20,691 nt of DNA, taken from a virus. The DNA lies in the IMG/VR virus record IMGVR_UViG_3300024265_000234, positions 1-20,691 of that record; one strand, given 5' to 3'. This document shows positions 1 through 17,353 of this stretch, one piece after another (within the stretch, counting starts at the first letter, position 1; each line of letters opens with the position of its first letter). The position numbers and the translations under genes were made by a program. Below the pieces are notes generated by a model, which worked only from the letters and a program-made list of their open reading frames with translations, was not told the DNA's origin and did no database searches.

Positions 1-679
1 GTCGCGGATTCCTGCGAATGAAACATTGATCTTTGAAATCCTGCCAACCAGGGACCGCCGTACTCTCAACGTATGAATCCGCGACCTGATCCATTACGAT
101 ATTATATCTCAACTTTTGGTAGTCCACGCTCACACCGAGAATCTGACCCTCGACCGATTGAAGCGCTTGCCCTCGTGCCGTCATCGGGAGCGGATTGAAG
201 TTTGCTTGAAGGAAATGAGGAAGCTCAAGGTAATTTCCAACAAAGAAAATTCCAACCTGCGGCTCTTCGACCATCGCTCCGGTAACGTTGATCCGCCAGT
301 ATCGCGCCGACTGTGCTGCGAAGTTCTGCAACCAAAGCCCGTTCCCTGTAAACACCGCCCCCGCACCTATGTCATTCCACGCTGCATCATCGGTTGACCA
401 TTGGATTTGCGCACCCAAGCCATCGTTGCCGAAATTATGCCCGGACAAAACCGAACCTGTGCATGAAACCGCCGTCAGGAAATCGTACTTAATCCACCAG
501 GGAGAGGTTAGGTTTGACGCACGAACTCTAGTGAAGCGCCGCCAATCCCTAACGTTCTCTGCGTGGTAATCTCCCGGTGTCATCGTCGTTGCCGCTGTCA
601 CCGTCGCGATGTACGCTTCGGCTGCATCACGCCGCGAACCGATGTTGTCGTAGTAGAGACGAGGTTTATTGAAAGCCAT
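1..679 (-). CDS. Distal-tail-type minor tail protein, cut by left edge
   Basis: The frame opens at an ATG that overlaps the tape measure stop (TAATG) and stays open to base 1, giving at least 226 residues (begins MAFNKPRLYYDNIG); the C-terminus is outside the window. The gene directly after the tape measure usually encodes a distal tail or baseplate hub protein, and I infer that role. Residues about 50-135 contain W-rich beta-strand segments (SPWWIKYDF, IQWSTDDAAWNDIG, ARYWRINVTG) that resemble a galactose-binding/discoidin jelly roll. The later part (VEGQILGVSVDYQKL, then a downstream GWQDFKDQCF) looks like a tail-assembly beta domain. It could bind carbohydrate on the host surface or simply be a structural ring protein. 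The reading frame is secure; the function rests mainly on position. Confidence 0.85.
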   Translation of the reverse strand, partial: MAFNKPRLYYDNIGSRRDAAEAYIATVTAATTMTPGDYHAENVRDWRRFTRVRASNLTSPWWIKYDFLTAVSCTGSVLSGHNFGNDGLGAQIQWSTDDAAWNDIGAGAVFTGNGLWLQNFAAQSARYWRINVTGAMVEEPQVGIFFVGNYLELPHFLQANFNPLPMTARGQALQSVEGQILGVSVDYQKLRYNIVMDQVADSYVESTAVPGWQDFKDQCFIRRNPR

Positions 680-3285
680 TACGCACCCGTATTCAAAACA
701 CCGTTATCGTCAATGACGCCATTGAGTTCATCCGTGATCGAACGCGCAAATTCATCCATGCCACCGAGAATCGTTCCCTGATTAATTACTGTAACCTGCA
801 ACACCTGTTGCGAAGGGAGACTCGCTTGCGTTGTTGCTGCTGCCGGCGTTGCTGCTGCCGCCGATGCTGCCGGTTGAGCCGCACCGCCGCCGCCGCCGCC
901 GAACACTCGACCAACCGTGATTGCTGCGGTTCCTGCGGCGATCTTCATAGCGCCAGCGGCGGCAAAAGCTGCCGATGACGGCCCCGGAATGATCGCCTTC
1001 GCGAGATCAATGAAGCCCTCCATGATTGCAGATTGACCTGTCGCTACGAGAGCTTCGCCGATGAACCTTTTTATGTTCTTCGCTTTCAGTGACGCGGCGA
1101 TCCCCTCTTGAGCGACCGACCGAGCGAACGCAGAGCCGAACTGCCGAACCGATCCCTGCGCAATATCTAGGGCAAGGCCGATTGCTTTAATTTTCCTTAT
1201 TGCTGCATCTTGCGAATCTCCGCCCTCTCTCATCGTCTCGTACAATTGGAGTAGGAACTCCCGAAGCTCCCTCGACTTGTCGCCGACAACTGTTAGGATC
1301 GTGACCCATGCTTCCATGCTGGCAATTTGCTCTTCTGTCAGCACAAGCCCTTTCGCCCTTGCTGTCGCTACCGCGTTTTCAACATCTGCGAGAGTCTGAA
1401 TGTTGGCGATGACAGGAAGTAAACCAGCTTCATTCCAGAGAATTAGCAATTGTGTCGATGCAAGCGTCTGAAAATCAAACGATTTCTGTTGCTGCTGCTG
1501 ATTGATTAACAGGTTCAACGCTTCTCGCCTCGACTGATTGAGTTCAGCTTGCGCGCGCTCACTTTCTGCTATCGCTTTCCTTCTTTCTTCTTCCTGCTCG
1601 CGAACCTTTATCTTGAGTAGTTCTCTCTGCCCTACTTCATCCTGTAGTTTTTGAATTCGCTTATCGGCGAGCTTGAGAGATTCTGCTGACGCATCCATTT
1701 CGAGCTTGAGTGATGCGGTTATGATTCCCATGTTACGTTCCGCAGCCTCTCGCGCTTCGAGCGACTTAATGATCAACGCCTCGAACGGCGCTGGAATTCG
1801 CAGGCCAAGCAATTGGAACTCTTCGCCGACCTTCTTTAAGTCTTTCGACAAGAGAATCAGCGCTCGTTCTTCTAGCTGCGAAGAGAACGCCGCCATGCCA
1901 TCGAATGATTGCTTGACCGCCTCGGCAAGTGTATTTAATCGAGTTTCAAGCTCTCCAACCGCGCCGCCTTCTTTTATTTTTTTTAATAGTTCCGCGAGCA
2001 GCGTGTCGTTCGTTCCAAATAGAGAATTTTGTTGCTTGATTAATGAAATGTTATCCCTGACAAATTTATTGTGAGCTTCGACCGCATTGTTCAATTCCGT
2101 GTATGATGTGCCGAGCTTCACGTTTATCTTTTCCAGTAGTGTCGTTTCTCTTCGAAGCTGTGCTTCCTCTTGCTCTGCCTCATTCATTCTTCGCTTTGCT
2201 TCTTCCCATAGATCGGGCATCATTCGCCCGAGTCTGATTAACTGAAACACTAGAAATGATACCGCAGCGATAAGCCCCGCGAGTAGAGCAGGCGTCCCGG
2301 CGAACGCTATGTTGATCGTGATCCCTAGTGCAGCAAACGCAGGGACCAACATGTTAACAACTAGATTTCCTAGCGCGAGCATTACCACCATTATCGCTTT
2401 CCAGCCCGCAGCAATTGACGCAAGTATGGCGGGACCAAACACAAGCGCCATCGTTATTCCAAGCGCGATTAACTGATCCTTGAATTGAATTATGACAGGG
2501 ATCGCTCGCTTTGTTATTTCAACCAGCCTTGTGATCCCTTTTATGGTTGGCGTTATCCCTTCGGCGATTAACTTGCCGATCTCTATTTTTAGAGAGAGGA
2601 TCGCCGTGTCGAGTTGAGCAACCGCGCCGCCGTAGGTATTGAGAACTTTCTCTGCGTCACCTGCCGCGAAAGCACCCTCTGTTAAGAATCCATTCAAGAG
2701 CGCTTGTCTAGCGCCGAGCTTCTTTTCCTTCGTGTCGAGATCTTGAATTGTGAATCCAGCCTCTTTCAAAATGACAGAGAGATTTTTCTGGATTCCGGCG
2801 CTGTCAGTGAGAATTGAATTGCGGTTTTTGATTCCCTGCGTTGTACGCTCTACCGCTTGGCCCATCGTAAAAAACGATTGCCGGTTAAATGCTGCGGTGT
2901 CTTTCATCGAACTAAGTAGATCTATCGTCTCTTGTAGGCTGAATCCCTCTGACATCAAATTCTTGAACGCTCTCGTAGCGTTCGACATCGGGATCAATCC
3001 ATCGGCGGTGTATGCTTTCACCGCTGCGGATACATCATCAATGCTCTGTCCGGTGAATTTCGCTACGGATCGCAACCCGATCTGCTGCTCTTCGAATTGC
3101 CTGAACTCGCGGAGGCTTTCACTTACGAATTGCTTGACCGCTTGGAGCGCTTTTTGAAACGACTGTTGTAGCTGAATCCCTATCCCGACGCCCGCAATGC
3201 CTTTGAGCGACGATGTAACCGAGTTGATCGCACCCGAAGCGCGATCCTTCCCGACTATTGTTACTTTCGCGTCTGCGGTCGCCAT
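679..3285 (-). CDS. Tail tape measure protein
   Basis: A protein of 868 residues starting at the ATG in TGATG, which overlaps the stop of the frameshifted chaperone frame; GGAG lies 8 bases upstream. An in-frame TTG one codon earlier is less likely. Tape measure proteins set tail length and fill the tube lumen before DNA ejection. Seen here: an Ala/Ser-rich N-terminus, a strongly hydrophobic stretch at about residues 264-352 with several possible membrane-spanning segments, charged coiled-coil-like helices at about 360-390 and 545-605, a Gln run, then a Gly6/Ala-rich linker and a short C-terminal domain (VTVINQGTILGG). The family relation 'longer protein, longer tail' suggests roughly 130 nm, which is inference only. 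Size, composition and place after the chaperone make the call firm. Confidence 0.93.
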   Translation of the reverse strand: MATADAKVTIVGKDRASGAINSVTSSLKGIAGVGIGIQLQQSFQKALQAVKQFVSESLREFRQFEEQQIGLRSVAKFTGQSIDDVSAAVKAYTADGLIPMSNATRAFKNLMSEGFSLQETIDLLSSMKDTAAFNRQSFFTMGQAVERTTQGIKNRNSILTDSAGIQKNLSVILKEAGFTIQDLDTKEKKLGARQALLNGFLTEGAFAAGDAEKVLNTYGGAVAQLDTAILSLKIEIGKLIAEGITPTIKGITRLVEITKRAIPVIIQFKDQLIALGITMALVFGPAILASIAAGWKAIMVVMLALGNLVVNMLVPAFAALGITINIAFAGTPALLAGLIAAVSFLVFQLIRLGRMMPDLWEEAKRRMNEAEQEEAQLRRETTLLEKINVKLGTSYTELNNAVEAHNKFVRDNISLIKQQNSLFGTNDTLLAELLKKIKEGGAVGELETRLNTLAEAVKQSFDGMAAFSSQLEERALILLSKDLKKVGEEFQLLGLRIPAPFEALIIKSLEAREAAERNMGIITASLKLEMDASAESLKLADKRIQKLQDEVGQRELLKIKVREQEEERRKAIAESERAQAELNQSRREALNLLINQQQQQKSFDFQTLASTQLLILWNEAGLLPVIANIQTLADVENAVATARAKGLVLTEEQIASMEAWVTILTVVGDKSRELREFLLQLYETMREGGDSQDAAIRKIKAIGLALDIAQGSVRQFGSAFARSVAQEGIAASLKAKNIKRFIGEALVATGQSAIMEGFIDLAKAIIPGPSSAAFAAAGAMKIAAGTAAITVGRVFGGGGGGAAQPAASAAAATPAAATTQASLPSQQVLQVTVINQGTILGGMDEFARSITDELNGVIDDNGVLNTGA

Positions 3286-3665
3286 CAAAACGCTCCGGCG
3301 CTTTTGTTATTAAACGATGGGGTAAATTTATTCTTTTCTTCTTGAAATTTATTTTCTTTGATGTTCTTGCTGCGCTCTTCGATAAGAATGATCTTGAGCG
3401 CTTCCCATTCATCGTATTCGAGGTCATCGGGGGCAAACCTACATCCCGCATCAATCATTAACTTTAAGCTCAGTATATGAACGAGGTAATCGCTCATTCC
3501 TCCGGCATCGCCGGAATCATCAAGTGGCGGGCCGTTCTCGCACGAACCGCACGTTGCTTTTCTGTCTTTTGCAGTTTGCCAGATTCCGCAATTACTGAAT
3601 CCAGGGCAACCACCTTCGGAGCGGAAACCAGAACCAGAGATGAACGCTCTAATTTCCGCCGTTAG
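3285..3665 (-). CDS. Tail assembly chaperone, -1 frameshift extension (gpT-like part)
   Basis: This frame has no ATG, GTG or TTG in its upstream part and is reached by a -1 slip at the A AAA AAC heptamer at the end of the chaperone gene. It adds 126 residues, giving a fusion of about 258 residues. The first 42 added residues carry C-x5-C-x12-C-x2-C (CPGFSNC, then CGSC), a possible zinc-binding knuckle. The last 70 residues (from MSDYLVHIL) are helical and highly charged, with a Lys-rich tail. An internal ATG at 3497 follows GGAGG by only one base, so separate initiation of a 70-residue protein cannot be excluded. The extended chaperone is expected to bind tape measure protein while the short form binds tube subunits, as in the lambda gpG/gpGT model. 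The extension ends on the tape measure start codon, which fits coupling. Confidence 0.8.
   Translation of the reverse strand, partial: LTAEIRAFISGSGFRSEGGCPGFSNCGIWQTAKDRKATCGSCENGPPLDDSGDAGGMSDYLVHILSLKLMIDAGCRFAPDDLEYDEWEALKIILIEERSKNIKENKFQEEKNKFTPSFNNKSAGAF
3621..3660 (-). promoter_or_regulatory. Stimulatory stem-loop for the -1 frameshift
   Basis: On the minus strand, GCGGAAA (3659-3653) pairs with TTTCCGC (3627-3621). A flanking G-T wobble can extend the stem, and a small inner stem AGAG/CTCT (3650-3647 with 3639-3636) closes a 7-base loop. The outer stem starts 5 bases after the slippery heptamer, within the usual spacing for a -1 frameshift stimulator. Pairing was read by eye; energy was not computed. 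Confidence 0.6.
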
Positions 3666-4060
3666 TTTTTTACTTGCTTCACCGATGGCATCAAGATCTG
3701 GACAACGGTTTGCTTGTGTTCATCGGGGATCATGTCGCGCCAATTTTCCATCGACATGAGTAACCCGTCGGCGGAATCCTCTTTGTCAACCTCGTAACCT
3801 TCGACGTTTTGAATGATCGAATCGTAGAGATCGAGCGCGGCTTTCAATGGATCGCCTTCCCACGCGAGCGTCATATCCTGATTAAGCTCGCCGCCCTCAA
3901 CGTCTTTCATCTTGAGGCCCATTTCGGTTGACATCGTTCGGTTGTATTCGATTCGCTCCTTCGTTGTGTAGGGTCGAACCCTGTGAACGAAAGTTTCCGC
4001 TGGAAATCGGTTGTCTTTGATCTCGATTTCGCGAACCTTCTTTTGGCGTGAAAGATTCAT
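3662..4060 (-). CDS. Tail assembly chaperone, unshifted form (gpG-like)
   Basis: A 132-residue protein with an ATG preceded by AAGGGG at 5 bases, 10 bases after the tail tube stop. It is mainly helical and charged (begins MNLSRQKKVREIEIKD) and contains no motif I recognise beyond the general character of the tail chaperone class. The identification rests on its place between tail tube and tape measure genes and on the frameshift signal at its last codons. In lambda-type systems the short form coats the tape measure and recruits tail tube subunits; it is absent from the mature virion. Cells should make this form in excess and the shifted form at a minor fraction. Confidence 0.85.
   Translation of the reverse strand: MNLSRQKKVREIEIKDNRFPAETFVHRVRPYTTKERIEYNRTMSTEMGLKMKDVEGGELNQDMTLAWEGDPLKAALDLYDSIIQNVEGYEVDKEDSADGLLMSMENWRDMIPDEHKQTVVQILMPSVKQVKN
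3665..3671 (-). promoter_or_regulatory. Slippery heptamer A AAA AAC for -1 frameshifting
   Basis: The heptamer fits X XXY YYZ exactly in the chaperone frame (gtA AAA AAC TAA), with the stop codon immediately after it. Slippage by one base turns the stop into CTA and continues into a 126-codon open frame. Tail chaperone genes of long-tailed phages commonly use this mechanism, so position and sequence agree. Confidence 0.85.
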
Positions 4061-4070
4061 GGTTCCCCTT

Positions 4071-5105
4071 TTATGCTGCCGCTAGGTGAGCGAGATCAAC
4101 GGCATCGTTCGTGATGACTTCGAGCGGCCCTTGATCTGCTGCCGTCCAGAACGCATTGCCAGCGACGTTGAAAATGAGTTGGTTGTTGTCGCTACCCTTC
4201 GGAGTCGCCGTGAATTTGTAGTTATCAATGTTGAGCGTGACATCGTGGTTAACATCTTCGGTTGAGCAAGTGATTACGACCGGCGCGTTGGTTCCCGCTT
4301 CCATCAGCGCTTGGAAATCGAGCGTTGCGGTTGGCGGTGCGAGTATAGTCAACGCGAGTTCCACGCTACGCCGTCCGAAGAACATTCGCTCTCTGAACTT
4401 CCCGAAGTCGCCCGCCGTCCCGAGAACGTATCCGTCATCGAGCATCAGGTTATTCGAGATTTTGAGTGACCAACCCTTGATGTAATCCTTGAGGTTGACC
4501 GCGTTAACCGTCATATCGACGTTTGACCCGCGCAGGTATTCATCTGCCGGCGTGATTGCAGGGATCGCAAGCGCGTTCACCGCGACCTGACCATTACCAA
4601 CTAAGCTGCAAGTCAACTGCACTCTGCCCTTGCCGCTTGCCGTCAACGTTACCTCGTTAACGCACATGCCGGTATATTTTCGGTTCAGGAGCGAGCTTAC
4701 GCCAACGATCTCTTCGATGATTGTTGCCGATGGTAGCTGCGTTCCATCGACGTTTTCATCCATGAACTTGAGCGTGTGTGTCCACGGATCGACAGCACCC
4801 GCAACCGCCGCCGTTCCCATCGCAAATGCGAACGCCCAACCAACCCAAAACACCGAAGCGTCCCACGTCCGCGTCATCTGCGATGACCATGTGTGAATCA
4901 CTTGCGAGTCGGGGAAGTCATGACCTCTACCAATCTGCTCTTCGTCGGTGATGATCTCGGGAATTCGCTCACCCATGTCCGGACCTTTGAATAGGCCCGC
5001 TCTTATGAGGTCTGGATCGCCAACCGCTGTCCCGTAGGCCGCTTCTGCCATACGAGACGTTAGCCACTTAACATCCCAATCGCGGAAATCTGATGTGATC
5101 GCCAA
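4071..5105 (-). CDS. Major tail tube protein
   Basis: A 344-residue protein whose best start is TTG, with GGAGG five bases upstream and the stop of the preceding gene (TAA) directly abutting; the next in-frame ATG (residue 19) would cut into the N-terminal SDFRDWDVKWLTSR segment. The sequence is rich in beta-strand patterns (VNEVTLTASGKGRVQLTCSL, FTATPKGSDNNQLIFNVAG) typical of phage tail tube subunits, which stack as hexameric rings to form the DNA channel. No sheath-like protein of about 400-500 residues precedes it, which favours a non-contractile tail. It lies directly upstream of the chaperone and tape measure genes, the standard order. At 344 residues it is on the large side and may carry an extra surface domain. 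Confidence 0.85.
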   Translation of the reverse strand: MAITSDFRDWDVKWLTSRMAEAAYGTAVGDPDLIRAGLFKGPDMGERIPEIITDEEQIGRGHDFPDSQVIHTWSSQMTRTWDASVFWVGWAFAFAMGTAAVAGAVDPWTHTLKFMDENVDGTQLPSATIIEEIVGVSSLLNRKYTGMCVNEVTLTASGKGRVQLTCSLVGNGQVAVNALAIPAITPADEYLRGSNVDMTVNAVNLKDYIKGWSLKISNNLMLDDGYVLGTAGDFGKFRERMFFGRRSVELALTILAPPTATLDFQALMEAGTNAPVVITCSTEDVNHDVTLNIDNYKFTATPKGSDNNQLIFNVAGNAFWTAADQGPLEVITNDAVDLAHLAAA

Positions 5106-5299: not shown

Positions 5300-5791
5300 C
5301 TACGTTATCGGGCCGATGTAATCGAATTGCGTCATGAAAATCATTTGATACGCCGAAGCGTGCGTTACGCTTAGATTAATCCTCGAATATTCTGTAGGAA
5401 TTAACGGCTGATCTCCCTGAAATAATTGAACACTGAGTAAACGTTTCTCGATGTCCATGATCATTTGCCGAGTTCCGACGTGCATTACTGGATCGGCTGG
5501 ATCTCCAGCGGCGGAATCCTCCGGCCCTGCGTAATTGGCATCATAGGCAATGATCACCATCGAGAGTTCTTGGTTATGGCTCCATGCGTTATCTTCGTCC
5601 GTTCTCGGAAACGTGCTACCAGAAAAGAATGTCCAGATGCGCGGCCCGTCGATGATCTCTCCGCGTTCTTGGAGAGCATCAAGTTCTCCTTCGTAAGATT
5701 TTACATCCTCGAATAGATAGGCGAGCCGCGCAGGATCATTTAACTTTGCAATGATTTTCTCTTCGACATCTTTAATGCTATGCCTTGCCAC
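5300..5791 (-). CDS. Mu gp37-like (DUF1834) tail terminator-type protein
   Basis: A 163-residue protein starting at GTG (GTG GCA AGG CAT), overlapping the previous gene by 14 bases, with a GTGAAG ribosome-binding-like stretch upstream. The N-terminal helix (VEEKIIAKL), a middle WTFFSGSTF segment and the later beta-rich part (SMVIIAYDANYAG, MTQFDYIGP) match the layout of DUF1834/Mu gp37-like proteins, which sit between the virion morphogenesis gene and the tail genes. Members are thought to cap the tail or join it to the head. Order here (gp36-like, gpG-like, gp37-like, small protein, tail) supports it. Family assignment is by eye. Confidence 0.7.
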   Translation of the reverse strand: MARHSIKDVEEKIIAKLNDPARLAYLFEDVKSYEGELDALQERGEIIDGPRIWTFFSGSTFPRTDEDNAWSHNQELSMVIIAYDANYAGPEDSAAGDPADPVMHVGTRQMIMDIEKRLLSVQLFQGDQPLIPTEYSRINLSVTHASAYQMIFMTQFDYIGPIT

Positions 5792-6293
5792 GCTTCACAT
5801 ACCTTTCAATGTTCGCAACGAGATCGTCCATGTGTCGTTTCGACGGCCAAGCAAACGGACGCGCCGGAACGAACACGGTTGCTGCGCTTTGATTTCCGAA
5901 CGGCTTGGTTTTGTATCCTGTCATGTGGAAATCACCATAGAACTTGAAGCGCAGCGTGAGCGCATCGCGCCGAACTGTTGCTCGCATACTTCGCCTGAGA
6001 GCGCCGCCTTTCTTCGCGCGTTTTCTGCCGCGAGCGGCGCGGCCTCCAAGCAAGACCTTCGCATGTCCCTTGTGTGCAATTGTGGCAGGGCGGTTCGGAA
6101 CCCAACGACTTTTCGCCCCGCTTCCGAATTTCGGCGGGGCGACGGCTGAATCGAAGCGCTTGTCGATATCTTTCAGGATTTGTTTTGCTGATTTACTGAA
6201 CGCCGGTTGGAGGTGACGCAAGCGAAACTTTATTCCCCTCAAACTTTTGTCAATCGATGAGGTATCCACCTTCGCGCTGATCTCTACCGGCAT
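5778..6293 (-). CDS. Virion morphogenesis protein, Mu gpG-like tail completion
   Basis: A 171-residue protein whose ATG overlaps the stop of the DUF1320 gene (TGATG). It is basic, with a long Arg/Lys-rich middle (GRAARGRKRAKKGGALRRSM). It has features of the phage virion morphogenesis family (Mu gpG, P2 gpS type): an N-terminal helical segment, a WVPNRPAT-like loop, a repeated 'G.LR.S' segment, and a terminal VPARPFAWPSKRHMDDL block close to the 'iPaRpflg' signature. This family completes tails or stabilises the head-tail joint. Neighbours on both sides are the matching Mu-type connector genes. Confidence 0.82.
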   Translation of the reverse strand: MPVEISAKVDTSSIDKSLRGIKFRLRHLQPAFSKSAKQILKDIDKRFDSAVAPPKFGSGAKSRWVPNRPATIAHKGHAKVLLGGRAARGRKRAKKGGALRRSMRATVRRDALTLRFKFYGDFHMTGYKTKPFGNQSAATVFVPARPFAWPSKRHMDDLVANIERYVKRGKA

Positions 6294-6769
6294 CAGAAAC
6301 CAAATCCATCATCAAAGCTACCGAACGTTCCCGCTTTCTGGCTATCAGTCAATCCACCTTCGTAGGCTCCCCGCCATTCTCGATCTTTCTCGAAGTCTCG
6401 ATTCGTTTTCGGCAACCCTTGTTCTTGACTCAGACCAGGGATCACCGCTTCGCCCTCAGAAACAGCTTTGAGGAATTCAATTGCGCCGTCGTATAGAACC
6501 TGTACGTTGTCCGGAGGTAGAGATCCCCTCCGAGCAAACATCATATAGAACGTGATGTTGTTTGAGAGCGTGATTAGGATAACCGGAGTCGGGGAAACGG
6601 GCGTGGTGTACCGTCTCCCGATCCAGCCATCAATTAATGCGTCCGCATTTGCGATGATTTCGAGCAGAACTCCGGCATCTGCCGCACCATCCGAATCATC
6701 GTCCGTTAACATGCGGATCTTGTCTTTGGAGAATAGGTTCTCCAAGTTTGTTTGCGTAGTATAAGCCAT
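6293..6769 (-). CDS. DUF1320 (Mu gp36-like) head-tail connector
   Basis: A 158-residue protein. The N-terminus MAYTTQTNLENLFSKDKIR and the motif NADALIDGWIGRRYTTPV are characteristic of the DUF1320 family (Mu gp36), with a following helical hydrophobic segment (ITFYMMFARRG). These proteins are thought to form a connector ring between portal and tail. The gene follows the major capsid gene after 30 bases and overlaps the next gene by TGATG. The ATG is preceded by GGGAT, a modest ribosome-binding site. The C-terminus is charged and Gly/Phe-rich (GSFDDGFGF). Confidence 0.85.
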   Translation of the reverse strand: MAYTTQTNLENLFSKDKIRMLTDDDSDGAADAGVLLEIIANADALIDGWIGRRYTTPVSPTPVILITLSNNITFYMMFARRGSLPPDNVQVLYDGAIEFLKAVSEGEAVIPGLSQEQGLPKTNRDFEKDREWRGAYEGGLTDSQKAGTFGSFDDGFGF

Positions 6770-6799
6770 AACGAAATCCCCTAATTCGAAATGACTATT

Positions 6800-7759
6800 C
6801 TACGATACGACGTTCTGGTAGCAGAACCCCGCAAGTCGATCAACAACTTTCTGATCGTAATACTTGTGGGTGTGAAAGAGTGTTGACCGTCTGCCGCCTG
6901 TCGCGCGTTCCCGCTCAACGATCATGCCGCTCTGCCCGCCTGCCGCCGTCCAGAGGAACGTATAGGCAAACGCAACGGTGTTGAGGCCCGGTGAAGGCGG
7001 AACCCAAAACAGCCAGAAGTGCTTTCCGAGAATGAAATCGAGCGCGCGGGTTGCCGCGAAATCCGCAGAGTTCAAGAGCGAATCCGCGATGACAACCTTA
7101 TCTAGCTCGAAAATGGTAGCGAGGTTCGCGTCGGTCATTCTCGGGCCAGCCGGAGAATTCACGAACTTGAATCGGTCGATCATGTCCGGAGCGTTCTTGA
7201 TCGCGTTCGCGGTGTGGCGAGTGCATAGACCAACGTTCGGAACTTCGCCACTATTCTTTAGAGTTGTGACCTTTGCGGTATCGACTCTTTTAACCGCATC
7301 GTTTGTGGCTACGTCCCACTTGGAGGCGGTTTCGTCGGTCGTATTCGCGCCATTGAAGGTCGTTGTGAAATCCTGAACGATGTCTCGAAAAGCAAGCTCT
7401 TGAACGAGCAAGATTTTCGACGTTGCCAATTCGGTTGTTCGGATTTCGGCCTGAACTGCCGGATCGGAGTTGTCACGAACTTCGTCAGGAAGAACACCCG
7501 TTCGGGAGTGCCCCTCTGCCGAATAGTTGTCCTGCGAGAGTGACCAGCGGGTTTCCTTCGCAGTATCTCCGGGCCGACGTAGATCGTCCGCGTCATCCCG
7601 CAGATGCTCGTGATCGTGAATGAAATACTTGTCGGATTTCTTCGCGACTCCGACACGAGGAAAGATCTCTTCGGCGACATAGCGGTTATCGCGATACTTC
7701 ACGCTAACCTGCGTCATCGCCGCGTCAATGTGTACTGTTTCGATGGTTGGGACCGCCAT
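6800..7759 (-). CDS. Major capsid protein
   Basis: A 319-residue protein with a strong GGAGG nine bases before ATG, as expected for the most abundant head protein. It shows the pattern of HK97-fold capsid proteins of Mu/B3-type phages: an N-terminal arm (MAVPTIETVHIDAAMTQ), an extended-loop-like segment (KYFIHDHEHLRDDADD), a long helix region (VQAEIRTTELATSKILL), a helical domain (HTANAIKNAPDMIDRFKFV) and a C-terminal beta/P-domain (GGRRSTLFHTHKYYDQKVV). Position after the protease/scaffold and DUF2190-like genes agrees. I see no N-terminal propeptide long enough to act as an HK97-type delta domain, so a separate scaffold, from the upstream gene, is likely used. Confidence 0.9.
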   Translation of the reverse strand: MAVPTIETVHIDAAMTQVSVKYRDNRYVAEEIFPRVGVAKKSDKYFIHDHEHLRDDADDLRRPGDTAKETRWSLSQDNYSAEGHSRTGVLPDEVRDNSDPAVQAEIRTTELATSKILLVQELAFRDIVQDFTTTFNGANTTDETASKWDVATNDAVKRVDTAKVTTLKNSGEVPNVGLCTRHTANAIKNAPDMIDRFKFVNSPAGPRMTDANLATIFELDKVVIADSLLNSADFAATRALDFILGKHFWLFWVPPSPGLNTVAFAYTFLWTAAGGQSGMIVERERATGGRRSTLFHTHKYYDQKVVDRLAGFCYQNVVS

Positions 7760-7810
7760 TCTAACAACCTCCGGTTATTCGATTCTCTTTTTCTGCGATG
7801 TCAGATTAGG

Positions 7811-8194
7811 TTATGTGGCCGCAATCGTCATCGGGTTAACGAAGATCATGATGTCATCGCCATCTGCCGCTGCGAGAGTTCTTGCGATTCCAACGACTCG
7901 AACCGCAGCACCGGCAGCAGAGATAAGTTTTCCTGCCGTTGACGCTTCGACAAGATCTCCAACGGTAATCGCGCCGCCTGCCGTGGCCCAACAAAGGCCG
8001 AGCATCATGACTACGCATCCTTCACCAACGATTGCTTGCGCTTCGAGCGCAATACCGCAAATCGAATCCGTCTCTGCGGTTGCAACGTCGATCTCGTCGT
8101 TGTTCGCGGTGTACTTAACCGCTTGCCCTGCTGTGATCGCTGCGGCTACCTTGAAGGTATCCGACAAAATCTGTTTTAGCGCTCCACCACTCAT
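7811..8194 (-). CDS. DUF2190-like capsid decoration protein
   Basis: A 127-residue protein with ATG preceded by GGAGG. It is low in charge and rich in Ala/Gly/Val (AAAITAGQAVKYTANNDEIDVATAETD, GGAITVGDLVEASTAGKLISA), the pattern of DUF2190-type phage proteins that probably trimerise on the capsid surface as cement or decoration. Position between protease/scaffold and major capsid protein matches the place of the decoration gene in many phages. The short hairpin just before its ribosome-binding site may tune expression. Family call is by eye. Confidence 0.72.
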   Translation of the reverse strand: MSGGALKQILSDTFKVAAAITAGQAVKYTANNDEIDVATAETDSICGIALEAQAIVGEGCVVMMLGLCWATAGGAITVGDLVEASTAGKLISAAGAAVRVVGIARTLAAADGDDIMIFVNPMTIAAT

Positions 8195-8207
8195 CTCTCA
8201 AACCTCC

Positions 8208-8227
8208 GAAAATCGGTTTTGATTTTC
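8208..8227 (-). promoter_or_regulatory. Hairpin abutting the ribosome-binding site of the decoration gene
   Basis: On the minus strand GAAAATC, loop AAAACC, GATTTTC form a perfect 7-bp stem with a 6-base loop, located between the protease/scaffold stop (8244) and the GGAGG (8207-8203) of the next gene. It has no T-run that would make it a clear terminator. It may be an mRNA stability or processing element; function not shown. Confidence 0.45.
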
Positions 8228-8243
8228 TATCGCTTGTTCTGGA

Positions 8244-8966
8244 TTAGCTCGCGTTTCTCTTCGCTTGATGCACGCGGATCAGAGCTTCGCTGAACGAGAT
8301 CTTTTCCTTCGCGGAAAGCTCGCTCGCCTGCTCTGCATCACTGACGCCCTCGTACTCGATCTTGATTCCACTCTCGTTCTTTTCGGAGAACTTCATCGGG
8401 AGCTTGGAGACTTTCTTTTTCTTGTTGTCGGGATCATCGTTGTCTTTGATGATCTCTTCGGTTGTCGGGTTGAGATTTTCCTCTACGCACTTTTGGAAAA
8501 ATGCCAGAGGCGTCATCTCGTCGCCCTTTTCCGCGAACTTGATCGCTTCGTTGTCGGTGTCGGAGAACGCGAGCATCTCCATGAACTTCACGAGGCCGAG
8601 ATCCTTGACCTTCGGAGAGAGGCGCTTGCTCTTGATCTGCGTATCGACCCAATCAGTGATTCCTTTCTTCGTAGATTCCACGCGGAACTTGTGGTCGGGA
8701 TTCTTTTCAAGCTCCGACATCCTGACCGTTTCCTCTTTCGCGTTCATGGCATCGGCGATCTTTGAAATGCGTTCGCTTCCCGCCATCTTATCGAGCAATT
8801 CCTCGACCTCTGGCTCACTCATTGCTTCGAGCGCTTCATCAATCGAGAGATCGCCATCAGGATCGGGTTCCGGTTCGCTGAATTTCTTGCCAGCGAAAAT
8901 TCCCTTGATTCCCTCGATCAGCTTACTGAATCCAGAATCCAAGTCTGCCTTTGTGATTCCGTCCAT
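8244..8966 (-). CDS. Possible internal-start scaffold protein within the protease gene
   Basis: Within the protease/scaffold frame an ATG at residue 153 (MDGITKADL) follows AAAGGGAG with 9 bases between, giving a 240-residue protein identical to the protease C-terminus. Mu and lambda express such nested scaffolds from their protease genes (gpI/gpZ, C/Nu3), which supports the inference. The region is acidic and coiled-coil-like and contains no protease motif, so it could work as an internal core. Evidence is sequence context only. Confidence 0.45.
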   Translation of the reverse strand: MDGITKADLDSGFSKLIEGIKGIFAGKKFSEPEPDPDGDLSIDEALEAMSEPEVEELLDKMAGSERISKIADAMNAKEETVRMSELEKNPDHKFRVESTKKGITDWVDTQIKSKRLSPKVKDLGLVKFMEMLAFSDTDNEAIKFAEKGDEMTPLAFFQKCVEENLNPTTEEIIKDNDDPDNKKKKVSKLPMKFSEKNESGIKIEYEGVSDAEQASELSAKEKISFSEALIRVHQAKRNAS

Positions 8967-9422
8967 GTTGTCAGACTCCCTTTCTTGAAAAATCGATATT
9001 GATTCATCGAACTCTTCTTTGAAGCATGTTTGCCGCAACCCTTTCACCTGCGGCACTCCTGCACCCAACATCGAGACAGCTTTCAGGTAGAGCTTCCCTT
9101 TGACCGGCGAATTATGACGCGGGTAGATTTCCACCGACCATTTTTTGAGTCTGCCTTTGCCGAATGAATTTTTGATTACATCGGAGATCTGAATTGGCAA
9201 TCCAGCGAGTAAGCCATCCTTTATATATAGGCGCTTGAACCAACCGTGTGCATCCTCTCCGGTTTTGGCCCTCTCATCGTTCTCTTTGTGGCCGATACAG
9301 AGCGGGGCTTCGTGAACTCCGGGGTCATAGCTCGCCGCGATCTCCGCGACATCCTCGGGGGTATAGACTCCCTGCGGGTATGAGTCGGGCCGGAATAGCT
9401 GCATCTCGGGGTCAGGGGTCAT
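8244..9422 (-). CDS. Mu gpI-like capsid maturation protease with C-terminal scaffold
   Basis: A 392-residue protein with GGAGG seven bases before ATG. The N-terminal part (residues about 8-150) has the pattern of the Mu-like I protease: FRPDSYPQGVYTPEDV..., then APLCIGHKEND (H45) and KKWSVEIYPR (S96), where H45 and S96 are candidate catalytic residues. In the Mu system this protease cleaves itself and the scaffold during head maturation. The C-terminal part (from about residue 153) is acidic and Lys/Glu-rich with predicted helices and coiled-coil character (EEVEELLDKM-like segments, DNDDPDNKKKKV), the expected form of a scaffold. An internal ATG at 8966 could give scaffold alone. Confidence 0.85.
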   Translation of the reverse strand: MTPDPEMQLFRPDSYPQGVYTPEDVAEIAASYDPGVHEAPLCIGHKENDERAKTGEDAHGWFKRLYIKDGLLAGLPIQISDVIKNSFGKGRLKKWSVEIYPRHNSPVKGKLYLKAVSMLGAGVPQVKGLRQTCFKEEFDESISIFQERESDNMDGITKADLDSGFSKLIEGIKGIFAGKKFSEPEPDPDGDLSIDEALEAMSEPEVEELLDKMAGSERISKIADAMNAKEETVRMSELEKNPDHKFRVESTKKGITDWVDTQIKSKRLSPKVKDLGLVKFMEMLAFSDTDNEAIKFAEKGDEMTPLAFFQKCVEENLNPTTEEIIKDNDDPDNKKKKVSKLPMKFSEKNESGIKIEYEGVSDAEQASELSAKEKISFSEALIRVHQAKRNAS

Positions 9423-9451
9423 TAACTGCCTCCGATCCTAGTCTCGATATC

Positions 9452-9769
9452 CTATTTCTTTTTGTCAAGGGCTTTCGCCATTGCTTTCAACCCGTTGCGC
9501 TTTTTCTTCCGCGACCGGCGACGCTTCCGGTTGCCAAGCGCCGTTGGTATGCTGACAGATTCGAGGCCCGACTTTTTCCCGTTCTCACTGAACCGCAATT
9601 TTCTCATTCTCTCCCTTTCAATCGCTGCTGCGCGTTGAGTTATGCAATCGGGACATGTGCATTGATCGGCGAACTGCGTTCTGCTGAGATAGAAATTCTT
9701 CGTAAAACTGCGCTGCTGCGCGCGCTGTTTTTTTGTCCAATCTCGGGGCCTGCCTTTTTGCCACGGCAT
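9452..9769 (-). CDS. Small basic protein with a Cys cluster, unknown function
   Basis: A 105-residue protein whose ATG overlaps the preceding stop (TAATG). It contains a tight Cys cluster, CTCPDC at residues 37-42, and a Lys/Arg-rich C-terminal tail (RKRRRSRKKKRNGLK). I do not recognise a family. The cluster suggests a metal or disulfide site; the tail suggests nucleic acid binding. It lies between another very basic protein and the protease/scaffold gene in a tight operon, so a capsid-internal or DNA-packaging accessory role is possible. The reading frame is well supported by coupling and by lack of any competing frame with such overlaps. Confidence 0.72.
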   Translation of the reverse strand: MPWQKGRPRDWTKKQRAQQRSFTKNFYLSRTQFADQCTCPDCITQRAAAIERERMRKLRFSENGKKSGLESVSIPTALGNRKRRRSRKKKRNGLKAMAKALDKKK

Positions 9770-10359
9770 TATTTTTGCCTTCCAAACCGCCGACCCTTGC
9801 CGAGCTTCACTAGACTCTTTGCGAGCCGCCGACCTGAACGCTGTTTGACGCCAGCGGAAATGCCCTTGCTACCAATCGGTTTTTCACCGCGTATTTTTCG
9901 CAGCTTATTCGTACCGAATAATTTGCCGCGTTCCTTCTTGAGCAATCCTGATTTGAGGCCGCGCTTGATTCTGCGTCGAGAACCACGCAACCGCGCGCCT
10001 ACTTTTTTGAACACCGCCTTACGTTGCGAAGAACTTATATTCGGTGTTGACGATGCCAGCCTCATCTTCGGAGTTTTTAGGGCAAGGCCGCGCTTCGTTC
10101 GTGTCGCTTTCGAACGCGGATCTTTTCCTGCCTTCGGCTTCCGTTCTTTCTTTCCTGTTTTCTGGAATCCTCCCTTAGTGAATCCCGCCGCCCCTCCGGG
10201 CGTCATCCGTAATCGGAGCGGCCCCGTTGCTCTTGATTTCCTTATGGTGCCCTGTTTGATTAATCCACGCGCGCGCTGAGTCGGAGTTCCGCCGCTTCTA
10301 CGAGATCGCGCGAAGATGGCGCGAAGCTGCGAGCGTGAGCGTCTGAAACCAAATGCCAT
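9769..10359 (-). CDS. Very basic protein (about one third Lys+Arg), unknown function
   Basis: A protein of about 196 residues starting at the second of two adjacent ATGs (TGATG with the gpF-like stop; GAGGG five bases upstream). By hand count it has about 64 Lys+Arg and only four acidic residues. The sequence has no hydrophobic core and many Gly/Ser/Arg turns, so it is probably disordered and nucleic-acid binding. Basic internal head proteins and protamine-like packers are known in some phages, but no motif links this protein to a named family. A longer version starting upstream would overlap the gpF-like gene by 136 bases with no support. A long plus-strand open frame opposite it appears to be a by-product of this composition. 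Confidence 0.7.
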   Translation of the reverse strand: MAFGFRRSRSQLRAIFARSRRSGGTPTQRARGLIKQGTIRKSRATGPLRLRMTPGGAAGFTKGGFQKTGKKERKPKAGKDPRSKATRTKRGLALKTPKMRLASSTPNISSSQRKAVFKKVGARLRGSRRRIKRGLKSGLLKKERGKLFGTNKLRKIRGEKPIGSKGISAGVKQRSGRRLAKSLVKLGKGRRFGRQK

Positions 10360-11057
10360 CATAGCCCTCGCAAAAACTTGGTCGGTGTCTGTTTGAATCC
10401 GGGGTCGGGGAACGCATCGAGCGGCAACACCGTCCGAAATCCCTTGAGCTTTCCGCGTTCCGTTCTTGTTAAGCCATCGATGACGCACCTGCAATTAAAT
10501 CCGTTCGGCGGCGTAATCACCCGCCAAACCCTAGCGTCCGCAGGCGCGACGAATTTGTGCATCGCAAAATGGTTGGGCCTAACGTGCGCATCGTCCCGAG
10601 TGTAATAAATCCACCAGGGGAAAACATCTTTAAGCTGGCTGAGTTCCGACATGCGACCCGAATTGTACGATGTCGCCATGCTCGTTTCGAAAATGGTCTT
10701 AACTCTGCCAGGGTGTTGAATGGTAATCCCTGCGCTTCCCAAAACATCAGATAGCCTCTTGAGGAAATTCTCTGCCGTGTCGCCTGCCCGCATCGATGCT
10801 GTCATTGCAGACTTAACGACTCGAACGATGTGCGCTTGCTCTGCGTTCGCAATTGAACGCGCCGCAGTTATCAGCAGCTTCGAAATATCTTCGCTATGGA
10901 TTACCTCTGCGAAGCGGATCGTTGCGCGCGATGCTCGCTTCGCAATGTCGGCCCGCCCCGCGTTGAAAGAAACGAAGAGCGATTTCTCCATTGTGAAACG
11001 GAAGTTTTCAAGAGCGATCCTAACAACAGTATCAAGGCTCTTTCGCGCCCCGGACAA
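10359..11057 (-). CDS. Mu gpF-like head morphogenesis protein (Phage_Mu_F)
   Basis: About 232 residues from a TTG at 11057, with no clear ribosome-binding site. Residues 150-195 hold the family motif: YYTRDDAHVRPNHFAMH..., then VWRVITPPNGFNCRC, with His and Cys residues that are probably a metal site. This family (Mu gpF, SPP1 gp7) is a minor head protein needed for head assembly or DNA ejection. The N-terminal part is helical. The protein is shorter than the usual 300-450 residues. The reading frame stays open upstream to 11111 inside the portal gene with protein-like sequence, and it has no ATG before residue 23, so the true start is uncertain. It ends at TGATG with the next gene. Confidence 0.82.
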   Translation of the reverse strand: MSGARKSLDTVVRIALENFRFTMEKSLFVSFNAGRADIAKRASRATIRFAEVIHSEDISKLLITAARSIANAEQAHIVRVVKSAMTASMRAGDTAENFLKRLSDVLGSAGITIQHPGRVKTIFETSMATSYNSGRMSELSQLKDVFPWWIYYTRDDAHVRPNHFAMHKFVAPADARVWRVITPPNGFNCRCVIDGLTRTERGKLKGFRTVLPLDAFPDPGFKQTPTKFLRGL

Positions 11058-12669
11058 ACCACGCTGATCGAAGTAACCTCCGAAGGCCGCGATTGACCCG
11101 AGAATGATCCGTCAATCCCGCTGCCGTCGCACCGGGTATTAACTGATCGAGTGATTGTTCTGGCATCTCGATCTCCGAAAACTTTGTGTTCTTGGAATCA
11201 TCATCACCTGTGGGCGGTTTACTTCCTCCGGTCGGTTTCGGCGGCTTAGGTCCGCCGAATCCACCTCCGCCGCCGCCGCCGGCTTGATCTTCTGCAACGT
11301 CGAACGGTTGCTCGCCCGTGATACCAAATCCACCAGGGATCACATCCTCTGCATCCACCGGCTCTTTGAGTTTGAATTCCTCTTGCATTTGAGCCTTCGA
11401 CAACGACATTCCGAGATTTTTCAGCGTGCTAAATGTCGTTGCACGCTCCGCCTGATTCTCTTTCTGCTGAACATCGAAGCGGATTCTCGGGTAGCCTACG
11501 ACGCCAGCGAAATTGAAATCGATCAACGGTCGAATCAATTGGAGGTCGATAACTCCGGAGAGCCATGACTCATCTTTTTCTAGCACATCCTGTTTAACGT
11601 CCGCGTGAACCTCTCCAAGTGCGAGCGATCCGGAGCGTCGCCCCTCCGTGCTAGAGAGCGTTTGACCAAGCACGGCTTTCGACATCGCATCATCGAAGAA
11701 ATTCAGGAGGTCATGATAGATGTTGCCGGTTGACGTTCGATTTGCTTCGAGCAAGTCGATCTCGGTTCCTTCGGGCACCGTAAGAACGGCTTCCTGCTGT
11801 AGATCCTGTAGAACTTCCCTGAAATGATCCTGATCCGGCGATGACATCCCGACGCCGTACTTGCCGATGATTGTTGGTTGCCCGAACTTGTCTGCATAGA
11901 CCATCGAATACTTGATGACCGATTTCTTAAACCAATAATACCAGTAACATTTTCTCGCAAGCCCGTTCCCGTATGGGCTATTGTTTTTGACGTTGAATTG
12001 CGTCACGATGAATTTGTTCTTCGGAACGTGCGCGCCGATGACTGATGGATCGATCATTACACCGAACGTCGTTTGCTCTTCGTCCCGAAGCACCTTGAGC
12101 TTGTTATCCATGTCGAAAACGAATCGACGTTGCGGCCTGCCCTTGATTTCACCAACGACAACTTTTGGCCCCGGAGATTCCAGACCCGCAAGCTCTTGAA
12201 CGTCCCACATGATTTCTGCGGCCTTCCAACCCTTCCCCATTGCATCCATTAATTCATAAAGCGCAGATTTGAACTGCGGAATATTCTCAAGAACAAGCGT
12301 GATGAACTGCGCGTGTTCCTCTGCGCGAGGGTCGTGTTCGTTCGGAATGACTGTCCACGGCTTGCCAAGAACCGCGTTTTTTCTCGTGTCGAGAACCGCG
12401 TAGTAATGCGGGTCGGTATGTTCCATTTGCTCGTATAGTTCGTAGAACCTGCCGCGTGATTCGAAGCGGAGAACATCGTCAGGGTGCGGGTAGGTTCTGC
12501 CCGCGTCGAGCTTGCCCGCGCCGAACACAAACTGATTCAGGAAAATATCTGTAGCGTTCGAGGCGATCTCTCTGCTCGTTGGAACGGCTACGCTCTCATC
12601 GAAAACTACGCTGCGCCTAACGAGCAAGCCCGACTTAGCTTTCTCTGGCAATCCCTTTCTTTTCGGCAC
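11032..12669 (-). CDS. Portal protein, DUF935 (Mu gp29-like)
   Basis: The start is GTG (GTG CCG AAA AGA), preceded by AAGGAG at 7 bases; a TTG 24 bases earlier would overlap the preceding gene and lacks a good site. 545 residues. Residues about 30-440 match the DUF935 family: FNQFVFGAG-type N-terminus, RFYELYEQMEHTDPHYYAVLDTRK, AVLGKPWTVIPNE, a KYSMVYADKFGQPTIIGKYG segment and VLGQTLSSTEGRRSGS. The portal forms the dodecameric ring through which DNA enters the head. A Gly-, Pro- and Lys-rich low-complexity region (about 458-497) is followed by a short tail. The C-terminus runs into the gpF frame with an odd overlap. Confidence 0.92.
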   Translation of the reverse strand: MPKRKGLPEKAKSGLLVRRSVVFDESVAVPTSREIASNATDIFLNQFVFGAGKLDAGRTYPHPDDVLRFESRGRFYELYEQMEHTDPHYYAVLDTRKNAVLGKPWTVIPNEHDPRAEEHAQFITLVLENIPQFKSALYELMDAMGKGWKAAEIMWDVQELAGLESPGPKVVVGEIKGRPQRRFVFDMDNKLKVLRDEEQTTFGVMIDPSVIGAHVPKNKFIVTQFNVKNNSPYGNGLARKCYWYYWFKKSVIKYSMVYADKFGQPTIIGKYGVGMSSPDQDHFREVLQDLQQEAVLTVPEGTEIDLLEANRTSTGNIYHDLLNFFDDAMSKAVLGQTLSSTEGRRSGSLALGEVHADVKQDVLEKDESWLSGVIDLQLIRPLIDFNFAGVVGYPRIRFDVQQKENQAERATTFSTLKNLGMSLSKAQMQEEFKLKEPVDAEDVIPGGFGITGEQPFDVAEDQAGGGGGGGFGGPKPPKPTGGSKPPTGDDDSKNTKFSEIEMPEQSLDQLIPGATAAGLTDHSRVNRGLRRLLRSAWFVRGAKEP

Positions 12670-12680
12670 GCTGCGCTCCT

Positions 12681-13088
12681 TTACTCGTTGCAAAATCCCG
12701 CTGATTTATTCCCGGCGTGATCTATCGCAATCATTCTGCCTGGAAAGACAGCCAGTTCCCCGATGTTGAGTTCGGGTAAGTTTTCAAATCGCAAGACATC
12801 ACAGACCGTAATCGGCATTGGTGCTGTACTTTTGAATTCGAGTTCTCTGTGGGAGTATCCAACGATGCAATCGAAAAGCTCAAGAGTGATTGGATTCTCA
12901 CATCCATTAATTTTCCAGATAGGGGTATAGACATCAGCTATCCACTCGTAATGATCGACAACATCGGGGTTGCAATCGATATCCTGCGTAACCTCGTCCC
13001 AACACCATCGACCTTCAACACGATTGTCAGGCTCTCCAATTTGAGCGGTAAAGCTCATTAGCACGCTAAGTAATATCGCGTTTAACAA
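12681..13088 (-). CDS. Small secreted, Cys-containing protein (Fn3-like end)
   Basis: A 135-residue protein from a TTG preceded by AAGGA at 7 bases, overlapping the preceding gene by 23 bases. The TTG start adds MLNAILLSVLMSFTA, a hydrophobic signal peptide with cleavage likely after residue 15; it lacks the usual positive residues. Six Cys (29, 39, 63, 74, 96, 133) could form three disulfides, consistent with export. The end GRMIAIDHAGNKSAG resembles the last strand of fibronectin type III-like folds. It may be a periplasmic or surface accessory, not a virion protein. A later ATG at residue 11 would remove the signal. Function unknown. Confidence 0.68.
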   Translation of the reverse strand: MLNAILLSVLMSFTAQIGEPDNRVEGRWCWDEVTQDIDCNPDVVDHYEWIADVYTPIWKINGCENPITLELFDCIVGYSHRELEFKSTAPMPITVCDVLRFENLPELNIGELAVFPGRMIAIDHAGNKSAGFCNE

Positions 13089-13422
13089 AGAAGATTCCTT
13101 GCGTTAGCGTGTTGATTTTCGACGCTGCGGTTAGAATCTCCAAGTCGTATTCATATCTACCGGCGAGCGAAGCGGTGTCTGCTGCGTCGATGGTAACATC
13201 AATTAATCCACTCCCCGCACTTGTCATGTCAATCCCTGACCCAATTGTTTTCTGGAATTCCTCTGCTGATTCCGGGTCACGTTTCACTGTGAACTTTGCG
13301 ACCGTCGCGCCCGACACATCGACAACGACATCATTTTCGTCGGTTACTGTGAACCGAATCTCTTGATCGTCGCCGCGAGTGATGATGATCTGTAATGTGT
13401 CCGCATCGATTACCAAACTCAT
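13066..13422 (-). CDS. Ig-like baseplate/tail protein (BppU N-terminus-like)
   Basis: A 118-residue protein whose ATG overlaps the preceding stop (ATGA), with GGAG seven bases upstream. The sequence is all beta: IIITRGDDQEIRFTVTDENDVVVDVSGATVAKFTV, then DVTIDAADTASLAGRYEYDLEI. This pattern (RGDD..I.F.V.d.nG..vdlsga......vk) matches the N-terminal Ig-like domain of baseplate upper/tail attachment proteins found in many phages. It probably anchors or spaces a receptor-binding protein. Placement beside the repeat protein supports a host-recognition module. Confidence 0.7.
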   Translation of the reverse strand: MSLVIDADTLQIIITRGDDQEIRFTVTDENDVVVDVSGATVAKFTVKRDPESAEEFQKTIGSGIDMTSAGSGLIDVTIDAADTASLAGRYEYDLEILTAASKINTLTQGIFFVKRDIT

Positions 13423-13622
13423 TTAGATCTCCACGCTCGAATTAATTCAGCAAGACCATGAGTGATTTTCGGTAGCACGAAATAGAGCGCCGCCAGAACG
13501 AGGATCATGATCATCGTTTGCCCGACATCGATCCCGGTGTCGCGCTCTATCTCTTCGAGCCATTCCCTTACCGCATCAAACCACGGCTTAGGTTTCGCTA
13601 TGCTTTGTTCCAATCCCGGCAT
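13419..13622 (-). CDS. One-helix membrane protein, possibly holin-like
   Basis: A 67-residue protein whose ATG overlaps the stop of the repeat protein (TAATG). A charged N-terminal helix (WFDAVREWLEEIERDTG) leads to one hydrophobic segment at about residues 36-51 (TMIMILVLAALYFVLP) and a short Lys/Arg-containing tail, so the C-terminus probably faces the cytoplasm. A pinholin or small membrane partner is conceivable, but no endolysin is seen nearby, so the holin idea is weak. Translational coupling to the neighbours supports that it is real. Confidence 0.65.
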   Translation of the reverse strand: MPGLEQSIAKPKPWFDAVREWLEEIERDTGIDVGQTMIMILVLAALYFVLPKITHGLAELIRAWRSK

Positions 13623-15670: not shown

Positions 15671-15672
15671 CG

Positions 15673-16098
15673 TTATGCTACCGCGATCTTCAATGTGTTT
15701 GCGTTGAATCGGAAGATGTCATTGTTCCCGACCAGCTTTGATGCGTCGAGAATTCCGTGAATCAGCATGTCGCCCGCGCCCCACGTCGCACTATTGCAAA
15801 TCGCGAAGTGCGTCACGGTGCCCCATGATCCCGTTGCTGTGTCGAATGTAAGAACCCCTGTATTGTCGGTTTGCCCGTCACCGCCAGCCGTCGCGGTCCA
15901 GTTTGCGTCGAGAGGATTATTTAGTTTACGCGCGTAACCGTTTGCATTGGCAACTTCGGTGATCGTAGCGCCGGTATCGCCATCAACCGGGGCGGCGGTG
16001 CAGAGTGCAACCGCTAGGACGGTTGGCTTGGTGAAGGAACCAGTGCGGAAAATGTGCTTGATAATTTCATCTTCTAGCCAGTTTGATGCAGCAGCCAT
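15673..16098 (-). CDS. Tail-fibre-associated virion protein family
   Basis: A 141-residue protein with AGGAG nine bases before ATG. It has the pattern of a common small phage protein: SNWLEDEIIKHIFRTGSFTKPTVLAVALCTAAP..., then TEVANANGYARKLN, GVLTFDTATGSWGTVTHFAI and the closing DIFRFNANTLKIAVA. Such proteins occur in or near tail fibre clusters in many siphophages and are annotated as virion structural or minor tail proteins. Beta-rich after residue 25. It ends two bases before the GTG of the repeat protein, so the two are probably coupled partners. Confidence 0.8.
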   Translation of the reverse strand: MAAASNWLEDEIIKHIFRTGSFTKPTVLAVALCTAAPVDGDTGATITEVANANGYARKLNNPLDANWTATAGGDGQTDNTGVLTFDTATGSWGTVTHFAICNSATWGAGDMLIHGILDASKLVGNNDIFRFNANTLKIAVA

Positions 16099-16113
16099 TT
16101 CACGTCGCTCCTG

Positions 16114-16749: not shown

Positions 16750-16802
16750 TTTGCCGCGCCTCTACTCGATCATCGGTTGCTCCCGTTAGAGGTATCATTC
16801 GG

Positions 16803-16853
16803 GACGGACAGACCAAAGCTGCCCGCCCCGGATCTCTGAACGTGTCTGCCGTC
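16803..16853 (-). repeat. Inverted repeat between the outer-membrane protein and CBM-like genes
   Basis: Minus-strand GACGGCAGAC (16853-16844) can pair with GTCTGTCCGTC (16813-16803), a 10-bp stem with one bulged T and a 30-base loop. No T-run follows, so it is not a standard terminator. It sits just after the outer-membrane protein stop and may separate or stabilise mRNA segments. Confidence 0.45.
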
Positions 16854-16859
16854 AGCATC

Positions 16860-17339: not shown

Positions 17340-17353
17340 TCGCTTTCTCCTTT

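Follow-up and report, generated by a model that had tools for sequence, protein, structure and literature searches.

A programmed -1 ribosomal frameshift very probably produces two tail-assembly chaperones from a single start in the viral DNA analysed here, in the manner of the lambda G/GT pair. The analysed stretch (the window, 20,691 bases, the whole of IMG/VR virus record IMGVR_UViG_3300024265_000234) belongs to a virus of bacteria. A slippery heptamer in the correct phase, a stop codon adjoining it, an open -1 frame, a predicted RNA stem and the same layout beside related tape-measure genes were all observed. The window's signal adds a well-supported instance of the known lambda-type G/GT -1 frameshifting.

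The preliminary description had located the signal between the tail tube and tape measure genes, and this placement was borne out. Upstream, a major tail tube gene (4071..5105, minus strand, like the short ORF, signal, extension and downstream gene described below) encodes a protein that matches PF18906 (Phage_tube_2, E 1.6e-13, cut-off passed) and also phrog_290, annotated as a minor tail protein (E 1.4e-13). Downstream, the 869-aa product of the gene at 679..3288 is probably the tape measure, judging by its size and place, and matches phrog_7078, a family of unknown function (E 1.9e-25). The short ORF lies between them (3662..4060, 132 aa), with AAGGGG preceding its ATG and GTA AAA AAC TAA at its 3' end. 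The perfect A AAA AAC reported earlier was found in this frame at 3671-3665, directly before the UAA stop (3664-3662), and the next base is C. The -1 frame is open across the heptamer and forms a T-like extension (3285..3665), reading CTA ACG GCG and onwards for 126 codons to a TGA at 3287-3285, which would give a fusion of 258 aa. No ATG occurs in the extension before codon 57 (3497), and codons 1-56 likewise lack GTG and TTG, so that the frame lengths, the start-less stretch and the two product sizes proposed previously all agree with the ORF reading. This start-less part holds a four-cysteine motif (C-x5-C-x12-C-x2-C, then x3-PP; 3540..3608), and the tape-measure ATG (3285-3283) overlaps the TGA of the extension in the sequence TGATG. 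The short ORF is designated a putative tail assembly chaperone (gpG-like) on the basis of its position and the two-ORF -1 layout that is common to its relatives.

In the proposed mechanism, most ribosomes would read GUA AAA AAC and terminate at the UAA, which yields the short form of 132 aa. A smaller share, delayed by the stem that begins 4 nt past the heptamer, would move back by one base at A AAA AAC, with both tRNAs re-pairing to AAA AAA, and would translate 126 more codons to complete the 258-aa fusion. Slippage, its frequency, the part played by the stem and the protein functions are what we infer from this arrangement. By analogy with lambda, many copies of the short form may bind the tape-measure protein, the C-terminal part of the rare fusion may recruit tail tube subunits, and both forms may leave before the tail is completed. 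The frameshift of the phage lambda gpG/gpGT tail assembly chaperone, reportedly the subject of work by Levin in 1993 and Xu in 2004, resembles the window's in its location between tail tube and tape measure, its -1 shift late in the first ORF, its long extension without a start of its own and a short form expected in excess. The lambda heptamer is G GGA AAG, whereas the window carries A AAA AAC with a stop right after it, and neither window ORF matches a described chaperone family. Passages of the lambda literature give a short-to-long ratio of about 30:1 and binding of the T part to the tail tube protein (PMC5009743), and an excerpt on another chaperone cluster gives shifting at 6% and 7% for two of its genes (PMC3711429).

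The remaining virion genes of the window (5300-19012) form a mosaic, with a phrog_113 portal, a Mu F-like protein and a phrog_1005 major head protein; a PHROGs scan of 13 window proteins found no sheath family. A 241-aa ORF rich in Arg and Lys (9769-10494), which has no Pfam match, lies in the -1 frame relative to the Mu F-like gene (10359-11057) and shares 136 nt with it. A second frameshift at this point was considered and rejected, as the 136-nt overlap contains no triplet-triplet slippery run.

Several controls addressed whether the heptamer could have arisen by chance. AAAAAAC occurs 4 times in the window against 5.3 expected and is not enriched; the heptamer itself is not rare, and it is therefore its place and phase that matter. 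When the codons of the short ORF were permuted 20,000 times, an in-frame X XXY YYZ (Y = A/T, Z not G) appeared within the 58-nt overlap in 3.0% of permutations and directly at the stop in 0.14%. The 22 window ORFs examined comprise 5,851 codons and hold six X XXY YYZ heptamers in phase, of which only the A AAA AAC at 3671-3665 abuts a stop.

Folding of the RNA, a check proposed in the preliminary description, gave a single 15-bp stem as the minimum-energy fold (3620..3660; arms 3660-3646 and 3634-3620 around an 11-nt loop), with a free energy of -25.5 kcal/mol and a z-score of -2.64; none of 200 shuffled sequences was equally stable. The spacer between heptamer and stem is 4 nt, counting one G-U closing pair. 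The pairing described earlier of GCGGAAA (3659-3653, 5 nt past the heptamer) with TTTCCGC (3627-3621) is retained in this fold, but the nested AGAG/CTCT pairing is absent from it. An equally stable 60-nt fold was obtained in 11 of 3,000 permutations of the extension codons, but of the window's 6,877 minus-strand 60-mers 147 reach the same stability, and the stem is thus unusual rather than unique. No Rfam family matched around the signal at gathering scores; one sub-threshold match was found inside the extension (E 0.087).

The stop-free -1 run spans 144 codons, longer than any out-of-frame run in 13 window genes (0 of 415; longest 129), and the whole extension scores as coding in its own frame, with a codon score of 0.134 against -0.218 and -0.669 in the other two. 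The 56 codons before the first ATG slightly prefer the -1 frame (0.049) over the 0 frame (-0.057); the value of 0.049 lies above all but 0.03% of out-of-frame stretches and below all but 1.5% of in-frame stretches. A score restricted to synonymous differences barely tells the frames apart (0.031 and -0.059, compared with -0.025 past the ATG), and in the pre-ATG stretch the 0 frame agrees better with positional GC. This pre-ATG coding signal is the weakest point of the frameshift case. Some compensation comes from the cysteine motif of the -1 frame, whose CxxCxxxPP element appeared in 0.03% of permutations of the residues in the 56-codon stretch. Since CxxCxxxPP precedes the first ATG, a frameshift is needed to make it.

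It is very unlikely that the downstream frame is instead made separately as a 70-aa product from ATG 3497, perhaps coupled to readthrough of the 0-frame UAA. This ATG overlaps the 0-frame TGA at 3496-3494 (GGAATGA) and has an adjoining GGAGG, and the 70-aa part scores as coding (0.201). However, GGAGG lies only 1 nt from the ATG, which is too near for a normal ribosome-binding site. A separate start would also leave the in-phase heptamer, its location against the stop, the stem and the pre-ATG cysteine motif as coincidences, and the heptamers of the relatives described below sit where a fusion requires them. The 0 frame is open for 55 codons past the UAA (3664-3494) until its TGA overlaps ATG 3497, possibly by chance.

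Family assignments were sought for both ORFs. For the short ORF no match was convincing, with a best E of 0.29 in PHROGs and of 0.0038 in Pfam; the latter, to a virion RNA polymerase domain, is below the cut-off and was taken as chance. The extension (P0002) likewise gave no convincing match in PHROGs or Pfam. Homologue searches with the short ORF and the tail tube protein (viral contigs and phages) and with the extension (phages and genome contigs) returned only a near-identical contig or nothing. No further homologue of the short ORF or the extension was present among the fetched loci, and iterated HMMER searches through the ORFs of these loci extended neither family. A terminase scan of viral contigs returned the same near-identical contig (L007; 28,268 bases, 99.96% identity over 8,056 bases compared), which has three differences from the window in the shared stretch and none in the signal. 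Sequence searches of the PDB gave nothing useful (best E 0.71, and none), and single-sequence AlphaFold models were poor (pLDDT 45 and 50).

Relatives were recovered with an anchor profile built from the N-terminal part of the putative tape measure and the protein of phage KT1, and the best 80 of 85 viral relatives were read. Among the 16 best (L007-L022), 15 hold upstream sequence, and all 15 contain a -1 ORF pair with an in-phase heptamer (A6C, A7, GGGAAAC or TTTAAAA) 0-30 nt before the stop of the first ORF; these 15 include the near-copy of the window (L007), and at the site L014 repeats L013 and L021 repeats L020. The arrangement is therefore conserved in tape-measure relatives whose chaperones, the near-copy apart, are not recognisably homologous to those of the window, which strengthens the original reading of the signal as a -1 frameshift. 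In the remainder of the best 80 of 85, L034 alone has a heptamer when these criteria are kept (Z not G, no more than 30 nt).

A wider set was assembled by adding the best 80 of 110 genome-contig relatives and the best 80 of 301 viral-contig relatives. In total, 230 loci were read, 227 of them with a tape-measure match. We set aside 85 loci (75 without a -1 pair and 10 with too little upstream sequence), together with L001-L006 and repeats, and 123 distinct -1 ORF pairs were retained. An in-phase X XXY YYZ (Y = A/T, any Z) within 30 nt of the stop was present in 45 of the 123 pairs and missing from 78, and the 45 fall into 13 ORF1 groups that share no blastp similarity at 1e-3. The heptamer is flush with the stop in 17 of the 45 relatives and in 7 of the 13 groups, including that of the window; selection for stop adjacency is not demonstrable from these counts, as in many cases the shortness of the overlap forces the heptamer close to the stop. 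Stems are uneven among the 45, with z below -2 in 11 and a mean of -0.94. The frameshift signal identifies the likely tail chaperone pair of an uncultivated phage, whose two ORFs match no chaperone family described in Pfam or PHROGs. This shows that chaperone genes can be traced by a conserved frameshift layout where sequence similarity fails.

The relatives also weigh against two explanations that do without ribosomal slippage. One holds that RNA polymerase slips on the A run, so that mRNAs with an altered number of A residues encode the fusion. Transcriptional slippage can be efficient on runs of seven or more A, and several relatives have at least seven at the site, but the run in the window is exactly six, which is short for that process. 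The GGGAAAC, GGGAAAG and TTTAAAA sites of other relatives are consistent with tRNA slippage, and a stem at a distance of 3-4 nt is what the ribosome would call for; we regard polymerase slippage as highly improbable. The other explanation involves no recoding at all, the two frames being one ORF broken by a base error or recent mutation in the A run, or simply a chance alignment. Homopolymers are error-prone, and the frames would be joined if the run changed by a single base. Against this, the contigs of 20,691 and 28,268 bases agree at the site (shared reads are possible), and other contigs show the two-ORF layout next to related tape-measure genes as well, which makes an artefact or accident scarcely credible.

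In Pseudomonas phage KT1 (L005, 6674-7278), an unannotated -1 ORF pair was observed between tail tube-like and tape-measure-like genes. Its overlap holds GGGGGAA, a type of motif named fivetwo in the available text on PRFect (PMC10885494).

One relative provides a weak motif link between the programmed frameshift proposed for the window and named chaperones. L022, the same sequence as L098, is a phage record in Candidatus Magnetominusculus xianensis, and its tape measure has 37% identity to that of the window over the matched part. Its site is A AAA AAA directly before UAG. The first ORF matches PHROG 313 ("Tail assembly chaperone", 2.7e-9) and the XkdN-like PHROG 389 (7.4e-5), and the extension matches PHROG 23549 and 680, with DUF1799 below the cut-off (0.00027). 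Kinship of the tape measure, a stop-flush A-run heptamer and a -1 extension with CxxCxxxPP are thus common to L022 and the window. The fuller motif reads C..C-x8-C..C-x3-PP in L022 compared with C-x5-C-x12-C..C-x3-PP in the window, and the two extensions (P0006 and P0002) show a weak pairwise match (E 0.004). Elsewhere in the plus-strand frames of all loci, CxxCxxxPP occurs in only one frame of L191. In contrast to these similarities, the first ORF of L022 is not detectably similar to that of the window and the fold of the 70 nt that follow its heptamer is not significant (z -1.35). A scan for the L022 extension returned the same record only.

Stop-flush heptamers were also observed among Gp15-type chaperones (PF06854), where a scan with Gp15-type extensions gave 59 loci in addition to 8 earlier ones. 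In these, A AAA AAC was counted at 23 distinct sites; it adjoins the stop directly in 19 and lies 3 nt away in 4. The -1 branch of this family, found in Bacillota phages (L151, L153, L157, L162, L147), resembles the window in its A AAA AAC, its immediate stop and a stem of about 14-16 pairs located 3-4 nt further on, but its proteins have no detectable similarity to those of the window and the layout is analogous only. The stem was examined in 14 of the 23 sites, picked by eye for a shared stem arm. In these, 83% of pair cells are kept and both sides have changed at 3 pairs. Out of 500 shuffles, 13 reached the real value for doubly changed cells, 19 for the covariation score and 21 for the percentage paired, but 272 did so for doubly changed pairs and 448 for pair types, and two of the five measures are therefore not above shuffles. 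The Gp15 covariation gives modest support that stems matter in the stop-flush A AAA AAC layout.

The position of the stop in the window bears on how the two products might be balanced. The preliminary description had suggested that termination competes with slippage, so that release-factor activity would set the short-to-long ratio. By analogy this is plausible and not new in principle, since excerpts of PMC4373837 report that in Rous sarcoma and barley yellow dwarf viruses the stop is the codon after the slippery site, and that shifting at an HIV-1 site modified to carry a stop at this place was abolished in a bacterial system when RF2 was raised; lowering eRF1 is reported in the same excerpts to have no effect on stop-bearing sites (PMC4373837). 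These eukaryotic-virus systems share with the window a stop right after the -1 heptamer but differ in their eukaryotic hosts and their products. The mean distance from slip site to stop is 26 nt in the SEA-PHAGES data, according to the part of the PRFect paper available (PMC10885494), which puts the distance of 0 in the window at the short end. A broader proposal, that stop-abutting slippery sites are a recurrent design of tail chaperones coupling the chaperone ratio and tail assembly to host release-factor activity, appears unlikely. At the 19 flush Gp15-type sites, the stops are UAA in 14, UAG in 4 and UGA in 1, and this mixture argues against reliance on one particular release factor. If the short-to-long ratio did respond to release factors, it would test, with a natural bacterial signal, where in the ribosome cycle slippage occurs.

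Within the Gp15 family, 38 loci lack A AAA AAC, and 30 of these were inspected after 8 apparent duplicates or near-copies were left out. Each of the 30 has its second ORF in the +1 frame with respect to the first, and in 24 a 0-frame CGA UUU C precedes the stop by 3-33 nt; in the row for L268, the UUU scored lies later than a likelier CGG UUU C. The first ORFs of the -1 and +1 branches are homologous (best cross-branch E 3e-20), and L151 and L244, one from each branch, match the same part of PF06854. From these sequences, the family seems to switch frameshift direction, -1 on A AAA AAC versus +1 on CGA UUU C (loci L147-L162 and L231-L288; for example L151, L252 and L244, whose ORF1 frame spans 194-499). 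The direction label makes two changes on a Gp15 extension tree of 51 rows, and the change of direction may have had one origin. A literature text search for CGA UUU or CGA TTT together with phage tail frameshifts found no paper. The site of L252 reads UCC UUU CGC, close to the influenza PA-X site UCC UUU CGU as quoted in an excerpt of PMC3498833. In Solobacterium phage SMO_1P (L291, 621-700), a +1 layout with ACU UUU CGU before UAA was observed, and the record table lists two overlapping hypothetical proteins with no fusion entry. In Streptococcus phage 5093 (L294, 323-982), Gp15 is annotated as a single uninterrupted ORF, and some members of the family seem to do without a frameshift.
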